A stretch of DNA of 7,367 nucleotides from Candidatus Mcinerneyibacteriota bacterium (GCA_030630935.1 DAOVMD010000145.1:1-7367); one strand, 5' to 3'. Positions 1-7,367 are shown, counted from the first letter of the stretch. A program made the numbers and translations. The notes: a model not told the origin generated them from the sequence alone.

Positions 1-1203
1 AAAATTGACCTGGTAATTACAGATTTAAAAATGCCGGGGATTAATGGACTTGATTTAATTAGACATGTAAGAGAAAACTATAAAGAAACCGAAATCATGA
101 TGATTACCGGATATCCGACTGTTGATACAGCTGTTAAAGCAGTAAAACTCGGGGCAGAAGAATATTTAACCAAACCCTTTACTGATGAAGAATTATTTTC
201 AATAGTAGAAAAAGTGCTCGCAAAACAGAAAATGAGAACCTTAAAAAAGAAGGAAATAAAAAAAGCATTCTCATTAACCCACGAAATAATTGGTGAATCA
301 AAGGTAATAAATGAGGTTTTAAAAAATATAAAAAAAGCCACGACTACTGCTGCAACAGTTTTAATTACTGGAGAAAGCGGGACAGGCAAAGAATTAGTTG
401 CAAGGGCGATACATTATAACAGTTCCAGAGCATCATTTAGATTTGTTCCTGTTAACTGCGGTGGAATTCCCGAAGAATTACTCGAAAGTGAATTGTTCGG
501 TTATATAAAAGGTGCATTTACAGGAGCAATTGAAACTCGGGCGGGTTTCTTTCAGACTGCTGATGGGGGAACAATTTTCCTCGATGAGATTAGCGAAACA
601 AGTTTAAGTATGCAAGTAAAACTTCTTCGAGTTCTTCAGAATAAAGAAGTCTGTATGATAGGCAGCAGGAAATCACAAAAGGTTAATGTCAGAATTATTG
701 CTGCAACAAATAAAGACCTTTCAATACTAATTAAGAAAAACCTTTTTAGAGAAGACCTCTTTTTTAGATTGAATGTGATCAATATTAATATCCCGCCTTT
801 ACGGGATAGAGATAATGATATTATCTCACTTGTTCATCATTTTGCAGAAAAATTCGCAAGAGAACACGAAACAACTGTACCAACTTTTTCTGATAATGCT
901 CTTAAGGTCTTAAAAAAATATTACTGGCCTGGGAATGTAAGAGAGCTTGAAAATGTTATACAAAGAATTATCGTTATGTCCGAACATAGTATAATTGATG
1001 TTCCCGACCTGCCTGATTTGATGCATTTCTATGCACTAAGAGGGAAAAGATTAAATCGAACCCTTGAGGAAGTTGAGATTGAATATATAAAGGATGTACT
1101 TAATTCTCAAAATGGAAATAAAACAAAAACCGCGGAAATCCTTAACATTGATAGAAAAACCTTAAGAGAGAAGATTAAAAAATTTAACCTGAAAGAACTG
1201 TAA
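1..1203 (+). CDS. Sigma-54-dependent response regulator, NtrC family (5' partial)
   Basis: This gene encodes an enhancer-binding activator of sigma-54 RNA polymerase. The reading frame is open to the first base, so the true start lies upstream; 400 residues are visible. Numbered from the window edge, the receiver part has the likely phospho-acceptor Asp8 (ITDLKMPG), switch Thr36 (MITGY) and conserved Lys58 (TKPF). The AAA+ domain has Walker A GESGTGKE (124-131), the sigma-54 contact loop GAFTGA (171-176), Walker B TIFLDE (191-196) and WPGNVREL (309-316). A Fis-type helix-turn-helix (about 374-395, KTAEILNIDRKTLREKI) ends the protein. All motifs needed for ATP-dependent open-complex formation are intact. 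About 165 bases after its stop is a near-consensus sigma-54 promoter serving the next operon, which makes that operon the likely target (inference). A partner histidine kinase is not visible and may lie upstream. The family assignment is very secure; the signal is unknown. Confidence 0.96.
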   Translation, partial: KIDLVITDLKMPGINGLDLIRHVRENYKETEIMMITGYPTVDTAVKAVKLGAEEYLTKPFTDEELFSIVEKVLAKQKMRTLKKKEIKKAFSLTHEIIGESKVINEVLKNIKKATTTAATVLITGESGTGKELVARAIHYNSSRASFRFVPVNCGGIPEELLESELFGYIKGAFTGAIETRAGFFQTADGGTIFLDEISETSLSMQVKLLRVLQNKEVCMIGSRKSQKVNVRIIAATNKDLSILIKKNLFREDLFFRLNVININIPPLRDRDNDIISLVHHFAEKFAREHETTVPTFSDNALKVLKKYYWPGNVRELENVIQRIIVMSEHSIIDVPDLPDLMHFYALRGKRLNRTLEEVEIEYIKDVLNSQNGNKTKTAEILNIDRKTLREKIKKFNLKEL

Positions 1204-1367: not shown

Positions 1368-1383
1368 TGGCATATCAATTGCT
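1368..1383 (+). promoter_or_regulatory. Sigma-54 (-24/-12) promoter of the redox operon
   Basis: TGGCATATCAATTGCT matches the sigma-54 consensus TGGCACRNNNNTTGCW at every defined position but one (T for C at the sixth base). The invariant GG (1369-1370) and GC (1381-1382) are exactly 10 bases apart, as required. Transcription should begin about 12 bases after the GC, near 1394, leaving a leader of roughly 32 nt before the ATG at 1426. The site lies between a sigma-54 activator gene and a five-gene operon on the same strand. The leader is too short for a riboswitch, so control is probably at initiation by an enhancer-binding protein. Confidence 0.85.
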
Positions 1384-1425: not shown

Positions 1426-1725
1426 ATGGCGATATTAGAGAAGTCATCGGTACTTAAGAAAACCGGAAGAGAGTCGAAAGGATTATGTTCGACTTGTATC
1501 CATTGTTCAGACTGCGCTTTCTGTTCTGATTCAACAGCCCCTATTTTTCAATGTGAGGAATTTGAAAGTGAATCAGCTGCAGTTAAAACAGTAATCAAAA
1601 ACCCGGTTACGGCTAACATCATAGATGATAACTTGAAAGGACTCTGCAAGAACTGTGAGAATCGTAAGACTTGTACATTTAAAAAACCCGAGAGCGGAAT
1701 TTGGCACTGTGAGGAATATAGATAG
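1426..1725 (+). CDS. Small Cys-rich protein with duplicated C-x2-C-x5-C-x11/12-C motif
   Basis: I do not recognise a named family. The 99-residue protein contains two copies of one motif. Copy one (18-47) begins KGLC and ends CEEFE, with Cys21, 24, 30 and 43. Copy two (71-99) begins KGLC and ends CEEYR, with Cys74, 77, 83 and 95. Each copy has four spaced cysteines fit to bind one zinc or iron ion or a small Fe-S cluster. Copy one has two additional cysteines (27, 33). There is no signal peptide or membrane segment, so it should be cytoplasmic. It is the first gene after the sigma-54 promoter and precedes the NuoE-like gene by 46 nt, so it belongs to the operon. It may be an electron carrier, an assembly factor or a metal-binding accessory subunit; the sequence does not decide. 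An ATG at 1414 would add four residues but lacks a ribosome site. Confidence 0.85.
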   Translation: MAILEKSSVLKKTGRESKGLCSTCIHCSDCAFCSDSTAPIFQCEEFESESAAVKTVIKNPVTANIIDDNLKGLCKNCENRKTCTFKKPESGIWHCEEYR

Positions 1726-1771
1726 ATAAGTAACTGAGTATTTTAACAATTTAAAAAGACGAGGTAAAATT

Positions 1772-2242
1772 ATGGAAGCAGCAGCATTGATAGCAGTAAT
1801 TGACAACTCTGTAAAAAATGATAGTGGATTAATTCCAATATTAGAGGATGTACAAAACAATTTTGGTTATATTCTGGAAGAAGCGGTTCAGATTATTTCA
1901 AAAAAAATCAATCGACCGGCATCTGAAATTTATGGTGTTGCAACATTTTATAAGTCTTTTAGCTTAACTCCAAGGGGGAAGCATTTGATTACTGTTTGTG
2001 TGGGAACTGCTTGTCATGTCAGGGGTGGAAGCAAAATTGTTGATGCTCTTTCGAGAGAATTAAAAATAGACCCTGGTGAAACAACAGAAGACTTAAATTA
2101 CTCATTAGAAGCAGTAAACTGTCTTGGGTGTTGTGCAATTGGCCCGGTAATAGTTGTTGATGATGAGTATTATGGTGAAATGACAACTCAAAAAGCATTA
2201 AATTTGGTTTCAAAATTAAAAAAGGAAGATGAAAATGATTAA
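1772..2242 (+). CDS. NuoE/HydC-like [2Fe-2S] subunit of NAD(H)-dependent oxidoreductase
   Basis: This is a thioredoxin-like [2Fe-2S] subunit of the complex I 24-kDa family, the partner of the NADH/FMN flavoprotein in NADH dehydrogenases and in HydABC/HndABCD-type hydrogenases. Residues about 10-65 form the helical N-terminal part (ILEDVQNNFGYI, then IYGVATFYKSF). The cluster ligands are Cys76 and Cys81 (CVGTAC) and Cys117 and Cys121 (CLGCC), which is the full C-x4-C plus C-x3-C set. At 156 residues it has the usual length for the soluble forms. GAGG at 1761-1764, seven bases before the ATG, supports the start. Its 3' end overlaps the NuoF-like gene by 8 nt, implying translational coupling and a stoichiometric complex. 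It should pass single electrons between the flavoprotein and the other Fe-S centres. Family is secure; HydC-type versus NuoE-type cannot be settled on this gene alone. Confidence 0.95.
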   Translation: MEAAALIAVIDNSVKNDSGLIPILEDVQNNFGYILEEAVQIISKKINRPASEIYGVATFYKSFSLTPRGKHLITVCVGTACHVRGGSKIVDALSRELKIDPGETTEDLNYSLEAVNCLGCCAIGPVIVVDDEYYGEMTTQKALNLVSKLKKEDEND

Positions 2243-4079
2243 ATTGAATTCTCCGGATGAGTTTCATTCTTTCAAAGAAAATCTTTCAAAAACCATAAAA
2301 AAAGATGAACTCTTTATTTCAATCTCTAATGCTACTTGTGGTCAAGCACGAGGTTCGAAAAAAATTGTAGAAGCTTTTGAAAAGGCTGCAGATAAACTTT
2401 TAAAAAATAAAATTAAAATTAAAGCTACCGGGTGTCATGGTTTTTGCGAAGCTGAACCCAACATAATAATTTTCCCGAAAGGAATTTTTTATCAGCATTT
2501 AAAGGCAGAAGATATTCCTGAAATCGTTGAGAAAACCATAAAGGGTGAAGTTGCAGAAGATTTTTTATATACTGACCCTGTAACAAATAAGAAGTGTGTT
2601 TCCATCGAAGATATCCCATTCTATAAAAAACAGCAACGTGTTTTATTAGGAGATAACCCTTTAATAGATCCTTGTTCAATAGAAGATTATATTTTTCATG
2701 GGGGATATGAATCGTTTTTAAAAGCCCTTGAAATATCTCCGAAAGATATCATTAAAGAAGTAAAAGAATCGGGCCTTAGAGGACGAGGTGGTGCAGGATT
2801 TTGGACAGGCAAGAAATGGAAATTTATTGAAAAGGAAAAGAATCCCGTAAAATACATAATATGTAATGCAGATGAAGGAGATCCCGGGGCATATATGGAT
2901 AGAAACCTTTTAGAGAGTAATCCTCATTCTATCTTAGAAGGAATGATAATCGGAGCTTTTGCAACTGGTGCGAGTGAAGGATGGATTTATGTTCGTCACG
3001 AATACCCCCTTGCAGTTAAACATATTACTGAAGCAATTGTTCAAGCAAAAAAATCTGGTTTCTTAGGGAAAAACATTCTTAATTCCGGTTTTGACTTTGA
3101 TATCAATGTTTTTGAAGGAGCTGGAGCTTTTGTTTGTGGAGAAGAAACTGCATTAATACATTCAATTGAAGGTTTTAGGGGAGTACCAAAACAAAGACCA
3201 CCTTTCCCAGTACAAAAAGGGTTATTTAATAAACCAACATTAATAAATAATGTAGAGACTTGGGCAAATATTCCTCAAATAATAAAAAAGGGCGGCTCCT
3301 GGTTTTCAAGTATAGGAACGGAAACAAGCAAGGGAACAAAAATCTTTTCACTTGTCGGTAAGGTTCGTAATACCGGTCTTGTTGAAGTACCGATGGGGAC
3401 GACATTAAGAGAGATTGTCTATGATATCGGCGGGGGGATCCCTGATGACAAGGAATTTAAGGCCGTTCAAACAGGTGGCCCTTCGGGTGGATGCATACCA
3501 AAAGACGAAATGGATTTAATTGTTGATTATGAATCTCTGACAAAGGCAGGGGCAATTATGGGTTCAGGCGGAATGATTGTCATGGACGAAACCACCTGTA
3601 TGGTTGATGTTGCAAAATACTTCTTAACATTTTTACAAGATGAATCCTGTGGAAAATGTGTTCCTTGCAGGGAAGGAATTCAGAGATTATTAGAAATTGT
3701 TACCGAGATTACAGATGGTACTTGTAAAGAAAACAAGTTAGAACTTTTAAAAGAATTATCTATAGTAGTTAAAGATACTTCTATGTGCGGTCTTGGACAG
3801 ACAGCCCCCAATCCTGTTCTCTCGACATTGAAATATTTTATGGATGAATACATTGACCATATTGATAATAAGAAGTGCTCTGCGGGAGTATGTAAAGCAC
3901 TCATAACTTTTGAAATTTCTCCTGAAGAATGTACTGGCTGCGGATTATGTAAACGCGCATGTCCGGAAAATGCAATTGAAGGAAAGATCAAAGAGGTCTT
4001 TACAATAACACAGGACAAATGCATTAAATGCGGTATGTGTTATGATGTCTGTAATTTTAATGCAGTTAAAATTAATTAA
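2235..4079 (+). CDS. NuoF/HydB-like NADH-binding FMN/Fe-S flavoprotein
   Basis: This 614-residue flavoprotein oxidises or reduces NAD(H) at FMN and feeds Fe-S clusters. Domains in order: a thioredoxin-like domain (about 1-95) with Cys35, Cys67 and Cys71; the NuoF core with the glycine-rich FMN/NADH motif GRGGAGF (183-189), NADEGDPGA (211-219) and GAGAFVCGEETAL (295-307); an SLBB-like region; the N3-type [4Fe-4S] ligands Cys472, 475, 478 (CGKCVPC) and Cys518; and a C-terminal pair of [4Fe-4S] motifs, Cys566/569/572/576 and Cys596/599/602/606. The extra N- and C-terminal domains are typical of HydB/HndC subunits of soluble bifurcating hydrogenases and NAD-linked formate dehydrogenases, and are absent from respiratory NuoF. 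The first cysteine of the N-terminal [2Fe-2S] set is replaced by Ile. GGAAG at 2224-2228 sits six bases before ATG 2235; the in-frame ATG at 2229 abuts that site and is less likely. Confidence 0.96.
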   Translation: MIKLNSPDEFHSFKENLSKTIKKDELFISISNATCGQARGSKKIVEAFEKAADKLLKNKIKIKATGCHGFCEAEPNIIIFPKGIFYQHLKAEDIPEIVEKTIKGEVAEDFLYTDPVTNKKCVSIEDIPFYKKQQRVLLGDNPLIDPCSIEDYIFHGGYESFLKALEISPKDIIKEVKESGLRGRGGAGFWTGKKWKFIEKEKNPVKYIICNADEGDPGAYMDRNLLESNPHSILEGMIIGAFATGASEGWIYVRHEYPLAVKHITEAIVQAKKSGFLGKNILNSGFDFDINVFEGAGAFVCGEETALIHSIEGFRGVPKQRPPFPVQKGLFNKPTLINNVETWANIPQIIKKGGSWFSSIGTETSKGTKIFSLVGKVRNTGLVEVPMGTTLREIVYDIGGGIPDDKEFKAVQTGGPSGGCIPKDEMDLIVDYESLTKAGAIMGSGGMIVMDETTCMVDVAKYFLTFLQDESCGKCVPCREGIQRLLEIVTEITDGTCKENKLELLKELSIVVKDTSMCGLGQTAPNPVLSTLKYFMDEYIDHIDNKKCSAGVCKALITFEISPEECTGCGLCKRACPENAIEGKIKEVFTITQDKCIKCGMCYDVCNFNAVKIN

Positions 4080-4103
4080 TTTGAACTTATATTGGAGGTA
4101 GAG

Positions 4104-4802
4104 ATGCCAATAATCTATATTGATGGAATCGAATTTGATTCACCTTCCGGCTGGACTATCCTTGAAGCGGCACAATTCTTAGGATTAGAGATCCCCACTC
4201 TCTGTCATAACGATGGTTTAACGCCATGGGGCGGCTGTCGTCTATGTATTGTGGAGATAGGAGAAGGGGAAAGAGCAAAACTGGTGACTTCATGTACTTA
4301 CCGGGTTGAAGAAGGTTTAAAAGTAAGGACAGCCTCAAAGAAAGTTGTTAAATCAAGAAAGATGATAATCGAACTTCTAATTGCACAATGTCCAACTTCA
4401 AAAACACTCCAGGACCTGGGAGCAAAGTTTGGAGTACAAAAAGTAAGATTTAAGCCCAAGTGGGAAGATTGTATTTATTGCGGGCTTTGTGTTCGGATCT
4501 GCTCTGAGCAAATGGGGGCTGACGCAATTGATTTTGCATTTCGGGGAAACAAACTAAAGATAACAACACCATTCGATAAGAAATCAGATGATTGTAGGCG
4601 CTGTGGTGCATGTATGTATATTTGTCCAGTCTGCAGTCTAAGATGTCAGGGGCCTGAACCACAAGGAGTAGTTTGCGGAGGTTGCTATAATGAACTGCAG
4701 CCGACATGTTTAGATGTCTTTGAAGATTATATGTGCTATGAAGGGCTCACAGGCGATTGTGGAACATGTATAAAAGAAAAACCTGAAAATAACAAAAAAT
4801 AA
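4104..4802 (+). CDS. NuoG/HndD N-terminus-like ferredoxin subunit with Cys-rich tail
   Basis: This 232-residue electron-transfer protein is built like the N-terminal Fe-S part of NuoG, HoxU or [FeFe]-hydrogenase large subunits, without a catalytic domain. A plant-type [2Fe-2S] ferredoxin domain (about 1-80) has Cys34, 45, 48 and 64. The usual His-Cys [4Fe-4S] site is missing: only Cys96 remains in that stretch. Two [4Fe-4S] motifs follow, Cys123/126/129/133 and Cys164/167/170/174. A C-terminal tail adds Cys177, 181, 191, 194, 202, 211, 219 and 222, enough for at least one more cluster or metal site. The ATG at 4104 is preceded by GGAGG (4094-4098) with a 5-base gap; an earlier in-frame TTG at 4092 overlaps that site and is unlikely. 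The gene starts 24 nt after the NuoF-like gene and ends 16 nt before the FMN protein, so it probably wires the diaphorase to that protein (inference). Confidence 0.92.
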   Translation: MPIIYIDGIEFDSPSGWTILEAAQFLGLEIPTLCHNDGLTPWGGCRLCIVEIGEGERAKLVTSCTYRVEEGLKVRTASKKVVKSRKMIIELLIAQCPTSKTLQDLGAKFGVQKVRFKPKWEDCIYCGLCVRICSEQMGADAIDFAFRGNKLKITTPFDKKSDDCRRCGACMYICPVCSLRCQGPEPQGVVCGGCYNELQPTCLDVFEDYMCYEGLTGDCGTCIKEKPENNKK

Positions 4803-4807
4803 ACAAC

Positions 4808-4813
4808 AGGAGG
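4808..4813 (+). promoter_or_regulatory. Strong ribosome binding site AGGAGG for a GTG start
   Basis: AGGAGG lies five bases before the GTG at 4819. No ATG is available near the start of this frame, so this perfect Shine-Dalgarno sequence decides the GTG start. Confidence 0.85.
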
Positions 4814-4818
4814 TCAAG

Positions 4819-6399
4819 GTGACACTGACAAGATTAAACAGGAGTGCAGCAACATTAACAAAAAATAGAACAGTTGATTCAGTCGTTCCACTTAGCGGTA
4901 TGTGTGCAACTTGTGTTGATGGCTGTATAGGAATGTGTGAAATTGGAAAATCAGCATATCGGGGACATGAAGTAATTTATCCTCAGCCATTTGGAATAAT
5001 AACTACTGCTTCTGAAAAAGATTATCCGGTTGACTTATCTCATTTTACAATCTTAGGTACCGTTATTGGAGCACAGGGAATCGAAGCTGATTCTGATAAG
5101 GCAATCTTCCCCAGCGCAGATTTAGAAAGAGTAATCTGCCCTGAAAACCCTTTAAAGGTAAAATTACCATTTGTTATTCCGGGGCTCGGCTCTACTAACA
5201 TCGCAAAAATTAATTGGGAAGGCCTTGCAATAGGTTCTGCAATGGCTGGTTTTCTCCTTACAATTGGTGAAAATGTTGTTGCAATGGATGGAGACTCTGA
5301 AATTAAAGATGGCAGAATCCTCTCAGCGCCGGACTTAGCCAGAAGAGTTAAACTTTATAAGGATTGGCAAGAAGACGGATATGGCGATATTGTTCTTCAG
5401 GCAAATGTTGAAGATACAAGATTAAAAGTACAAGAATTTGGAATTGAAAAACTGGGCGTTGAAACAGTTGAACTTAAGTGGGGGCAGGGAGCCAAGAATA
5501 TCGGCGGAGAAGTTAAACTCAAAACTTTAGAAAGAGCGCAGATGCTTTATAAAAGGGGTTACGTTGTACTTCCGAACCCAACAGACGAAACTGTAATTAA
5601 AGCTTTTAAGAGAGGTGCCTTTAAAGAATTTGAAAGACATTCAAGAGTAGGAATGCCGGAAGAAGAAGGCTTTATTAAGCGAGTAGAAGAATTAAGAGCA
5701 GCAGGAGCAAAGAGAGTTTTCTTAAAAACCGGAGCATATCGTCCGCAAGATTTAGCAAGGGCATTAAAATGGGCATCCAAATCAAAAATAGATATGCTGA
5801 CTGTTGATGGAGCTGGCGGTGGAACAGGAATGAGTCCATGGAGAATGATGAATGAATGGGGAGTTCCAGGCGTTGAACTTTGGTCATTGTTATATCAATA
5901 TGCTGATAAATTAGCAAAAAAAGGAGAACATGTTCCGAGTATTGCAATTGCCGGTGGTTTCACATTTGAAGATCAAATTATTAAAGGCCTGTCCTTAGGT
6001 GCACCATATTTCCAAATGATTGGAATGGCAAGATCTTTCCTTGCAGCAACAATGGTTGGAAAAACAATTGGAAAGAAAATAGATGAGAGCCAAGTTCCGG
6101 TATATATTGAAAGATTTGGTACAGACATTGAAGATATTTTTATTACTGCTGCTGAACTCAGGAAAAAATATGGAAAAGATTTTGATAAAATTCCGACAGG
6201 GGCGCTTGGTGTTTTCACCTATGCCGAAAGACTTTCTATGGGAATGAAACAGATTCTTGCCGGTGCCAGAAAATTCAAGATTGACCTGCTTGACAGAAAT
6301 GACATTGCTTCTCTTACTAAAGAAATTGCCAATGTAACCGGAATTACATATATTATGGATGTAGATAAAGAAGAAGCAGAACAAATTCTAAATTCATAA
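4819..6399 (+). CDS. FMN-binding glutamate-synthase-domain protein (stand-alone GltB FMN domain)
   Basis: The 526-residue protein is essentially one alpha/beta-barrel FMN domain of the glutamate synthase large-subunit family. Family marks are GQGAKNIGGEVK (223-233 region), the phosphate/FMN loop GAGGGTGMSP (331-340), IAGGF (377-381) and the following GAPYFQMIGMARSF stretch. The N-terminus carries Cys29, 32, 36 and 40 (C-x2-C-x3-C-x3-C), a likely Fe-S site. It lacks the glutaminase domain and the C-terminal GXGXG domain of full GltB (about 1500 residues). It also lacks the three-Cys [3Fe-4S] motif that normally follows the FMN loop in GltB; no cysteine occurs after residue 107. It therefore cannot take ammonia from glutamine by itself and may not make glutamate. 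As last gene of the NADH/Fe-S operon it is probably the catalytic end of the complex, accepting or donating electrons through its FMN; its substrate is unknown. The GTG start is set by AGGAGG at 4808-4813. Confidence 0.93.
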   Translation: MTLTRLNRSAATLTKNRTVDSVVPLSGMCATCVDGCIGMCEIGKSAYRGHEVIYPQPFGIITTASEKDYPVDLSHFTILGTVIGAQGIEADSDKAIFPSADLERVICPENPLKVKLPFVIPGLGSTNIAKINWEGLAIGSAMAGFLLTIGENVVAMDGDSEIKDGRILSAPDLARRVKLYKDWQEDGYGDIVLQANVEDTRLKVQEFGIEKLGVETVELKWGQGAKNIGGEVKLKTLERAQMLYKRGYVVLPNPTDETVIKAFKRGAFKEFERHSRVGMPEEEGFIKRVEELRAAGAKRVFLKTGAYRPQDLARALKWASKSKIDMLTVDGAGGGTGMSPWRMMNEWGVPGVELWSLLYQYADKLAKKGEHVPSIAIAGGFTFEDQIIKGLSLGAPYFQMIGMARSFLAATMVGKTIGKKIDESQVPVYIERFGTDIEDIFITAAELRKKYGKDFDKIPTGALGVFTYAERLSMGMKQILAGARKFKIDLLDRNDIASLTKEIANVTGITYIMDVDKEEAEQILNS

Positions 6400-6436
6400 T
6401 TTTTTTATTATCGCTGTTTGTTATTATATGTTTAAT

Positions 6437-6478
6437 CTCAGTCATTCCCCTTCGGGGTAATGACTGAGAACAATTTTT
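6437..6478 (+). terminator. Intrinsic terminator with UUCG-capped hairpin
   Basis: Arms CTCAGTCATT (6437-6446) and AATGACTGAG (6459-6468) pair perfectly. Above one C-U mismatch, CCC pairs with GGG around a TTCG tetraloop closed by C-G, a very stable cap. After AACAA at 6469-6473 comes a T-run at 6474-6478. It ends the redox operon 38 nt after its last stop codon and insulates the dehydrogenase-like gene downstream. Confidence 0.9.
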
Positions 6479-6495
6479 AATATCAAATATGTAAA

Positions 6496-7367
6496 ATGAG
6501 AAAAAATAATTCTATGAGCTACAAAAAGCAGAATCAGTTAAAAACATTTTTTAAACAGTTAATAAAAACTGCCGATTTATACGGCGTGAATTCCAATATG
6601 GAAACCATCCTGCTACACCCATTTAAAGAAGTTATAATAAATTTTCCCGTAAAATTTGATAATAATCATGTAACAATTTTTCAAGGTTATCGTATTCAGC
6701 ATAATAATTTTCTTGGGATTTATTCCGGTGGAATTAGACTCGAACAAACACTTGGTTTGGATGATATTAGAATCTTTGCATTATTAATGACTCTTAAATC
6801 ATCGTTGGTAAATATCCCGTTTGGAGGTTCATTTGGCGGAATTAAAATTAATCCGGAGAAATATTCAAAAAATGAAATTGAAAAAATAATTAGAAATTTT
6901 ATACAAAAGTTGAATAAAGATATTGGACCGGAAGTTGATATTCTGTCTCCGGATCTAAATACAAATTCAACTGTTATGTCCTGGATACTTGATTCATATT
7001 TATCAAAATTACCGCCTAAACAAAGAAAGAAGTCAATTCAGCTTGTTACTGGAAAACCTATTGAATCAGGGGGAATTCTTGGGAGAGAAAAAGCCGTTGG
7101 TCAAGGATTGGTTTATATTATTGAGAAATGGGCGAAGGATAAAAAGTTTAAATTAAGGGGTGCAAAATACTTCGTTCAAGGTTTTGGAAATGTTGGTTCA
7201 TGGGTTTCCAGATTATTGAAACCACTCGGGTGCAAATTAATTGCTGTCGAAGATTCTTCCGGAGCAATTTCTAATATTAAAAGTATTGATCCCTATAAAC
7301 TTGCTGAGTACAGAAAAGAAAATGGGGGGATTGCAGGATTTCCCGGAACGAGAAAAAATAATCATAA
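6496..7367 (+). CDS. Glu/Leu/Phe/Val dehydrogenase-like protein with altered active site (3' partial)
   Basis: The frame is open to the window end (290 complete codons). The protein follows the glutamate dehydrogenase fold throughout: GYRIQHN (64-70), GGIR (78-81), MTLKSS with Lys101, PFGGSFGG (108-115), DILSPDLNTN (148-157) with the conserved Asp153, TGKP (185-188), and the Rossmann motif QGFGNVGS (228-235). Active-site positions are changed. In the usual GPxKGGIR motif Lys is Ser77. In the usual PxGGAKGG motif the catalytic Lys is Phe113. The usual Thr in GRxxATG is Val201 (GREKAVG). The family normally oxidatively deaminates an amino acid with NAD(P); losing the catalytic Lys suggests little or no such activity, another reaction, or a regulatory role. 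The frame is uninterrupted, so this is not an obvious pseudogene. It lies behind the terminator, so it probably has its own promoter, which I could not identify. Neither ATG 6496 nor in-frame ATG 6514 has a clear ribosome site; 6496 is chosen as the longer form. Confidence 0.88.
   Translation, partial: MRKNNSMSYKKQNQLKTFFKQLIKTADLYGVNSNMETILLHPFKEVIINFPVKFDNNHVTIFQGYRIQHNNFLGIYSGGIRLEQTLGLDDIRIFALLMTLKSSLVNIPFGGSFGGIKINPEKYSKNEIEKIIRNFIQKLNKDIGPEVDILSPDLNTNSTVMSWILDSYLSKLPPKQRKKSIQLVTGKPIESGGILGREKAVGQGLVYIIEKWAKDKKFKLRGAKYFVQGFGNVGSWVSRLLKPLGCKLIAVEDSSGAISNIKSIDPYKLAEYRKENGGIAGFPGTRKNNH

Follow-up and report, generated by a model that had tools for sequence, protein, structure and literature searches.

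What does a compact operon encode when an NADH module of the Bfu type stands beside a flavin mononucleotide (FMN) protein of the glutamate synthase type? Such an operon lies in a 7,367-nt stretch of DNA from Candidatus Mcinerneyibacteriota bacterium (DAOVMD010000145.1:1-7367), which is the window of this analysis. The source genome (GCA_030630935.1) contains 3.16 Mb in 471 contigs and is 80% complete. The window begins inside an NtrC-type response regulator gene; after it come a 100-aa protein with duplicated cysteine motifs, BfuC, BfuB, BfuA, the 526-aa FMN protein (Glt) and the start of a glutamate dehydrogenase, all encoded on the plus strand. Judged from its sequence, the set has in our view about an even chance of encoding a soluble Bfu-type complex in which Glt is the third-substrate module. 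It would be driven by NADH and probably by ferredoxin. We call it Glt-Bfu.

Bfu core and Glt protein

A first-pass annotation of this DNA had described five closely packed genes. All five reading frames are open, the order is as described, and the tight spacing continues to position 6399. We agree with it that the set contains no glutaminase, H-cluster, molybdopterin or membrane gene. BfuC, BfuB and BfuA together hold every Bfu-defining domain (Pfam compared with the definition in PMC9304861). BfuB encodes PF01512 (Nuo51-FMN), PF10531 (SLBB), PF10589 (NADH_4Fe-4S) and C-terminal Fer4/Fer4_21 domains. Along its full length it matches bifurcating HydB-type chains with 659 to 764 bits (764 for the HydB of NiFe-Bfu), whereas the best respiratory NuoF reaches 383 bits. 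The B2-site residues C457, T495, H544, C550 and C555 are present. They are kept in 72 Glt-linked BfuB, with T, S or C at position 495 in 69. The B2-site histidine also aligns in 4 of the 7 canonical NuoF sampled and is not diagnostic alone, so C555 and residue 495 discriminate better. Zinc has been reported in the BfuB linker of Stn (PMC10482914), and the nature of the B2 site is debated. For the N-terminal B5 [2Fe-2S] cluster, C37, C69 and C73 were found; a fourth cysteine was not recognised.

The first-pass annotation had called this an NADH-diaphorase module. The NADH-module domains are there, but by its domains and HydB scores the core is a true Bfu type and not a plain diaphorase. It also differs from the NADH module of complex I (NuoEFG), as BfuB has a C-terminal ferredoxin domain and the window contains no membrane subunit genes. 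Besides the window BfuB, no full-length protein of the NuoF/HydB type was detected in the 80%-complete source genome.

BfuA contains 232 aa and matches PF13510 (E 6e-15) and Fer4_7 (E 1e-6). It lacks the His-Cys cluster motif. It matches hydrogenase models in the Fe-S part only and has no H-cluster domain, which sets the operon apart from the [FeFe] hydrogenase HydABC. The closest solved structure is chain 9mqx_A, and the match stops at residue 190. The eight cysteines of the BfuA tail are conserved at 99-100% in 74 relatives. The predicted structure of BfuA (pLDDT 57) is not usable beyond residue 120.

Glt is a divergent member of its family. Its match to PF01645 (Glu_synthase) is weak (E 2e-11) and covers residues 282-400 only, and a sequence search against solved structures returned nothing significant. 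Its AF2 model has a pLDDT of 83 and a pTM of 0.87. With this model, Foldseek ranked ferredoxin-glutamate synthase 1ofd second (E 1.2e-9), with the highest listed query TM-score (0.52). A profile comparison by hhalign matched Glt to archaeal-type GltB over 339 columns (probability 97, E 2e-10). We take the 2-oxoglutarate site of the 1ofd protein to be lined by E903, Q969, K972, Q978 and R992. In the profile alignment E151 of Glt falls on E903 (1ofd-protein numbering). E151, E218, K220, Q223 and K226 are invariant in 97 Glt family members, and R246 is nearly always R. The only invariant cysteines of the family lie near the N terminus. Cys 29, 36 and 40 are found in 97 of 97 members and Cys 32 in 96, and we read this CxxCxxxCxxxC as a predicted Fe-S site for electron entry.

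By sequence, then, the set has the testable features of a Bfu enzyme (with three cysteines found for the B5 cluster) but not the full definition of a glutamate synthase. Glt has the FMN barrel and the 2-oxoglutarate-site motif. Neither the protein nor the gene set contains a glutaminase domain.

Conservation and nitrogen-related neighbours

A genome scan for Glt relatives returned at least 587 loci. The conservation results rest on the best 80 of these, a sample that favours close relatives and is valid for this clade, not for every Glt. Its bacterial loci came from Cloacimonadota, Aminicenantes, Zixibacteria, WOR-3/Stahlbacteria, KSB1, Calditrichia, Planctomycetes, Riflebacteria, Coatesbacteria, Ignavibacteria/Bacteroidetes, Acidobacteria, Deltaproteobacteria, Neomarinimicrobiota, TA06 and Firmicutes (Dethiobacter). 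Archaeal loci came from Methanoperedens, ANME-2 and Thermoplasmatota. Among relatives with enough flank, BfuA is immediately upstream of Glt in 74 of 74. BfuB and BfuA are both present in 66 of 67, and the full order BfuC-B-A-Glt is found in 50 of 51 with a median gap of 25 bases. The BfuA-Glt gene order is far from chance. In the 97-member family, the Bfu-linked Glt form one clade (85 of 85, support 0.83) with no stand-alone Glt inside it. In the BfuB tree the Glt-linked BfuB group together with modest support (0.68), away from the reference sequences (NiFe, FeFe, Stn and canonical NuoF).

The idea of a dedicated complex had been staked on the set being conserved elsewhere and on the FMN relatives not clustering with unrelated partners. 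It survived on both counts, with the order kept across many bacterial phyla and archaea and the linked Glt in a single clade. The phylogeny suggested for the NuoF-like subunit separates it, with that modest support, from the references and does not give a clean Glt-only clade.

Two designs of BfuB occur. The window BfuB has the ferredoxin design. Of the 66 relatives whose BfuB is complete, 38 carry a GltD domain (two [4Fe-4S], FAD and NAD(P)-binding) where the window protein has its C-terminal ferredoxin domain. The nearest relative within the same family also encodes a GltD-type BfuB (L102 3-2474). Close relatives differ, and the largest BfuB sub-clade requires six or more switches between the designs. 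Further GltD-type examples are found in L025 (3025-6207) and L044 (3088-6282). A GltD fusion was considered as a sign of glutamate chemistry and rejected, since a GltD-fused BfuB also adjoins an FeFe hydrogenase in L190. BfuB with an extra GltD domain has been reported in Hydrogenedentota hydrogenases (PMC11406978).

The commonest neighbour outside the set is a glutamate dehydrogenase (NCBIfam GdhA-type; 17 of 85 loci). Counted by hand, it lies within 7 kb of the set in about 13 of 56 carrier genomes, against 0.43 expected. A glutamine synthetase gene (GlnA) is beside the archaeal set in L061. Stand-alone Glt adjoins GAF-ANTAR proteins (L106-L108) and the nitrogen repressor NrpR (L111). In L106 (852-12798) it stands with two GAF-ANTAR regulators and a run of glutamine-dependent enzymes (GuaA, PyrG, PurF, CarAB and HisH-like). 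Glutamine synthetase is present in 53 of 56 carrier genomes. The source genome, at its 80% completeness, contains no PF00310 (GATase_2 glutaminase) and no canonical GltB. Canonical GltB was found in 14-16 of 49 carrier genomes. A hand count places it in 2 of 9 genomes whose Glt is at least 56% identical, versus 24 of 47 without any Glt. Strict complementarity between Glt and canonical GltB was rejected; there is a trend only, and about a third of the 49 carriers have both.

Several other genes recur near the set. In methane-oxidising archaea (L045, L059 and L061) a divergent gene left of BfuC encodes a second Glt-family protein (about 47% identical). A Cys-rich zinc-ribbon-like module is fused to BfuC or encoded separately in relatives (L040 3422-4363; L025 2581-2988; L027 2592-2999) and is absent from the window. 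Downstream of the set, several loci encode a large protein whose N-domain is of the pyruvate-phosphate-dikinase type (L079 6363-9137; L033, L037, L058 and L087).

Proposed reaction and its alternatives

The sequence shows the domains, the active-site motif, most cluster ligands, a conserved gene order and neighbours linked to nitrogen. From these we infer a single physical complex, its electron direction, ferredoxin use, bifurcation and its substrate. NADH would be oxidised at the FMN of BfuB. Reduced ferredoxin would probably enter through the C-terminal 2x[4Fe-4S] domain of BfuB, and the BfuBC core may merge both inputs (confurcation). BfuA, including its Cys-rich tail, would hand the electrons on to Glt, through the N-terminal Fe-S site of that protein and its FMN. 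Glt would then reduce 2-oxoglutarate and ammonium to glutamate. The glutamate couple has a potential of about -120 mV; under cell conditions NADH is at -280 mV and ferredoxin at -500 mV. Merging NADH and ferredoxin would give a larger pull than NADH alone and so may help at low ammonium without ATP.

The first-pass annotation had read the set as an NADH module with a glutamate-synthase-type FMN partner that might also use ferredoxin. The Bfu domains, gene order and clade speak for that reading, with the complex, ferredoxin use and reaction predicted from them. The final substrate, which had been left open, is less so given the 2-oxoglutarate-site motif and the nitrogen neighbourhoods; the reaction itself is a prediction. 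We consider it possible, though doubtful, that Glt-Bfu is a widespread route of ammonium assimilation. In that case a confurcating enzyme would spend NADH and reduced ferredoxin, not ATP, to turn 2-oxoglutarate and low ammonium into glutamate. GltD-type members would use NADH and NADPH. Many anaerobic bacteria and archaea not yet cultured would use the route in place of glutamine synthetase-glutamate synthase (GS-GOGAT).

Several observations weigh against the Glt-Bfu reading. Four BfuB without Glt lie inside the Glt-linked BfuB clade (support 0.68). Fusions had been suggested as something to look for, and no natural BfuA-Glt fusion was found among the fetched loci. Glutamate dehydrogenase is encoded in 47 of 56 carrier genomes, so Glt-Bfu need not be the only glutamate route. 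The remaining points concern bifurcation and substrate. The potential of the reaction, at about -120 mV, is high enough that NADH alone would be thermodynamically sufficient, and reduction of 2-oxoglutarate and ammonia runs downhill from NADH. In addition, the ferredoxin domain is swapped for GltD in most complete BfuB (the 38 of 66), so ferredoxin is not universal. NADH electrons may thus pass straight through BfuBCA to Glt, as in a plain NADH-dependent glutamate synthase. We regard this as unlikely for the window, whose BfuB is far nearer to bifurcating HydB than to NuoF and has the ferredoxin domain and B2-site residues that Schut et al. (PMC9304861) tied to bifurcation.

The same complex may act on another substrate, with Glt reducing or oxidising another 2-oxo acid, an imine or a hydroxy acid. 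VIA-align puts 2-hydroxyacid oxidases and isopentenyl diphosphate (IPP) isomerase 2 (IDI-2) first by Z, so the function of Glt is not fixed by fold alone, and its PF01645 match is weak and partial. Gln978 of GltB is an invariant Glu in the 97 Glt family members. The three [3Fe-4S] cysteines of GltB are lost, with no cysteine in the aligned region. We hold this to be quite unlikely, as the GltB-specific QGAK..GG motif and the E903 equivalent are invariant in the 97 members and the neighbourhoods concern glutamate and nitrogen. The N-terminal Cys motif is also found in stand-alone Glt, where Bfu genes are missing, so another donor is possible. Glt and BfuABC may then be two enzymes of one regulon, with BfuABC making a soluble carrier such as reduced ferredoxin for Glt. 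This is improbable with BfuA immediately upstream of Glt in 74 of 74 loci, no other catalytic partner in the set, a lineage-wide Cys-rich BfuA tail and all linked Glt in one clade. A regulatory or sensor role, in which the complex informs the neighbouring two-component system about redox or nitrogen state, would fit what is conserved upstream in many bacterial loci: a response regulator, a sigma-54 site and the small Cys protein. It is highly improbable, since the active-site residues are invariant and archaeal and many bacterial loci have the set without a detected regulator.

If the Glt-Bfu reading is true, it would add a third substrate to the Bfu family. It would also suggest, in a form open to testing, how glutamate is made in the many uncultured anaerobes that lack classical glutamate synthase. 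Ammonium uptake that is redox-driven and spares ATP would alter the metabolic models for sediment bacteria and for methane-oxidising archaea. With ferredoxin and GltD domains exchanged naturally on the same core, the system is also well suited to testing how a low-potential partner is chosen by Bfu enzymes.

Operon boundaries and comparison with known systems

The first gene of the set probably starts at 1426 as first annotated, with GGAG 6 nt before the ATG. BfuA and Glt probably start at the positions in the table, with an AGGAGG-type site ahead of each. BfuB starts at 2229 or 2235. The strong hairpin between Glt and the glutamate dehydrogenase gene suggests that the latter is a neighbour and not an operon member. 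An Rfam search matched no RNA family, and a PHROGs search gave no match.

In 13 more loci the operon is again preceded by a relative of the regulator (>55% identity). Of 14 regulator-linked loci, 7 have a TGGC-N7-TTGC site in the gap from the regulator to the operon (shuffles give an expectation of 0.08), and the source genome contains an RpoN gene. The regulator likely activates the operon, and would do so through the sigma-54 promoter. The duplicated-Cys protein recurs upstream of the Bfu-Glt set. It has no Pfam or NCBIfam match, and both of its Cys motifs are common to 13 relatives. It is possibly an Fe-S or Zn protein.

Table. Features of the window, by position from its first nucleotide
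Feature	Position	Strand	Basis or remark
NtrC-type response regulator	1..1203, truncated at window start	+	Pfam Response_reg, Sigma54_activat, HTH_8
Predicted sigma-54 promoter (-24/-12), TGGCATATCAATTGC	1368..1382	+	Exact TGGC-N7-TTGC; precedes duplicated-Cys gene
Small duplicated-Cys protein, two C-x2-C-x(n)-C-x(n)-C motifs	1426..1725	+	8 invariant Cys, 14-sequence alignment
BfuC (NuoE/HydC-like), one [2Fe-2S]	1772..2242	+	PF01257, E 6e-48
BfuB (NuoF/HydB-like): thioredoxin-like N-domain, NADH/FMN domain, SLBB, [4Fe-4S], C-terminal 2x[4Fe-4S]	2229..4079	+	
BfuB C-terminal 2x[4Fe-4S] (ferredoxin-docking, B3/B4) domain	3912..4064	+	Pfam
BfuA (NuoG N-terminal type): [2Fe-2S] and 2x[4Fe-4S]	4104..4802	+	PF13510, Fer4
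BfuA Cys-rich C-terminal extension	4632..4769	+	Eight Cys, mostly beyond part matched in 9mqx_A
Glt, stand-alone glutamate-synthase-type FMN protein, predicted catalytic subunit	4819..6399	+	PF01645, AF2, Foldseek, hhalign
Glt N-terminal C-x2-C-x3-C-x3-C, predicted Fe-S site	4903..4938	+	Cys 29, 32, 36, 40
ELKWGQGAKxIGGE motif of Glt, equivalent to EIKMAQGAKPGEGGQ of ferredoxin-glutamate synthase (2-oxoglutarate/FMN site)	5470..5511	+	Profile alignment
Terminator-like hairpin closing operon	6436..6469	+	-23.2 kcal/mol, z -6.9
Glutamate dehydrogenase	6496..7367, truncated at window end	+	PF02812, PF00208; likely separate transcription unit

Glt-Bfu is best read as a new Bfu type that is absent from the published Bfu classification. 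That survey, with a tree of 57 clades, counted 1558 BfuB proteins and 17 clades without assigned function; it lists no nitrogen reaction and never mentions glutamate or GltB (PMC9304861). A literature search for this arrangement found no description; it did not extend to subscription papers, so an earlier description is possible.

The closest known systems are the Bfu Type 2 enzymes (Wor-Bfu, Bam-Bfu and Por-Bfu; Schut et al. 2022, PMC9304861). They share the BfuBC core with its NADH/FMN and ferredoxin domains and B2-site residues, and a short BfuA without the His-Cys cluster motif that serves extra catalytic subunits. Here the BfuA tail is Cys-rich, many members have GltD instead of the ferredoxin domain, and the partner is a glutamate-synthase-type FMN protein, which is not among the authors' third reactions. 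With glutamate synthase (GltB/GltS; Fd-GltS 1ofd and the archaeal-type split GltB) Glt shares the FMN barrel, the E903, QGAK and GGTG motifs and nitrogen-assimilation neighbours. Unlike glutamate synthase, it has no glutaminase, central or GXGXG domain and no [3Fe-4S] cysteines. It has Glu for Gln978 and an N-terminal CxxCxxxCxxxC, and its electrons are predicted to come from the Bfu core. The Stn/Nfn-Bfu transhydrogenase (PMC10482914) has the BfuBC core and combines it with a GltD-type FAD domain, as do some relatives here. Its GltD, however, sits in the A subunit and binds NADPH, and Stn has no GltB-type FMN protein. The F420-dependent glutamate synthases named in ANME archaea (PMC9012536) likewise place glutamate synthase on an unusual anaerobic electron module, but theirs is an FrhB-type F420 module and not BfuABC.

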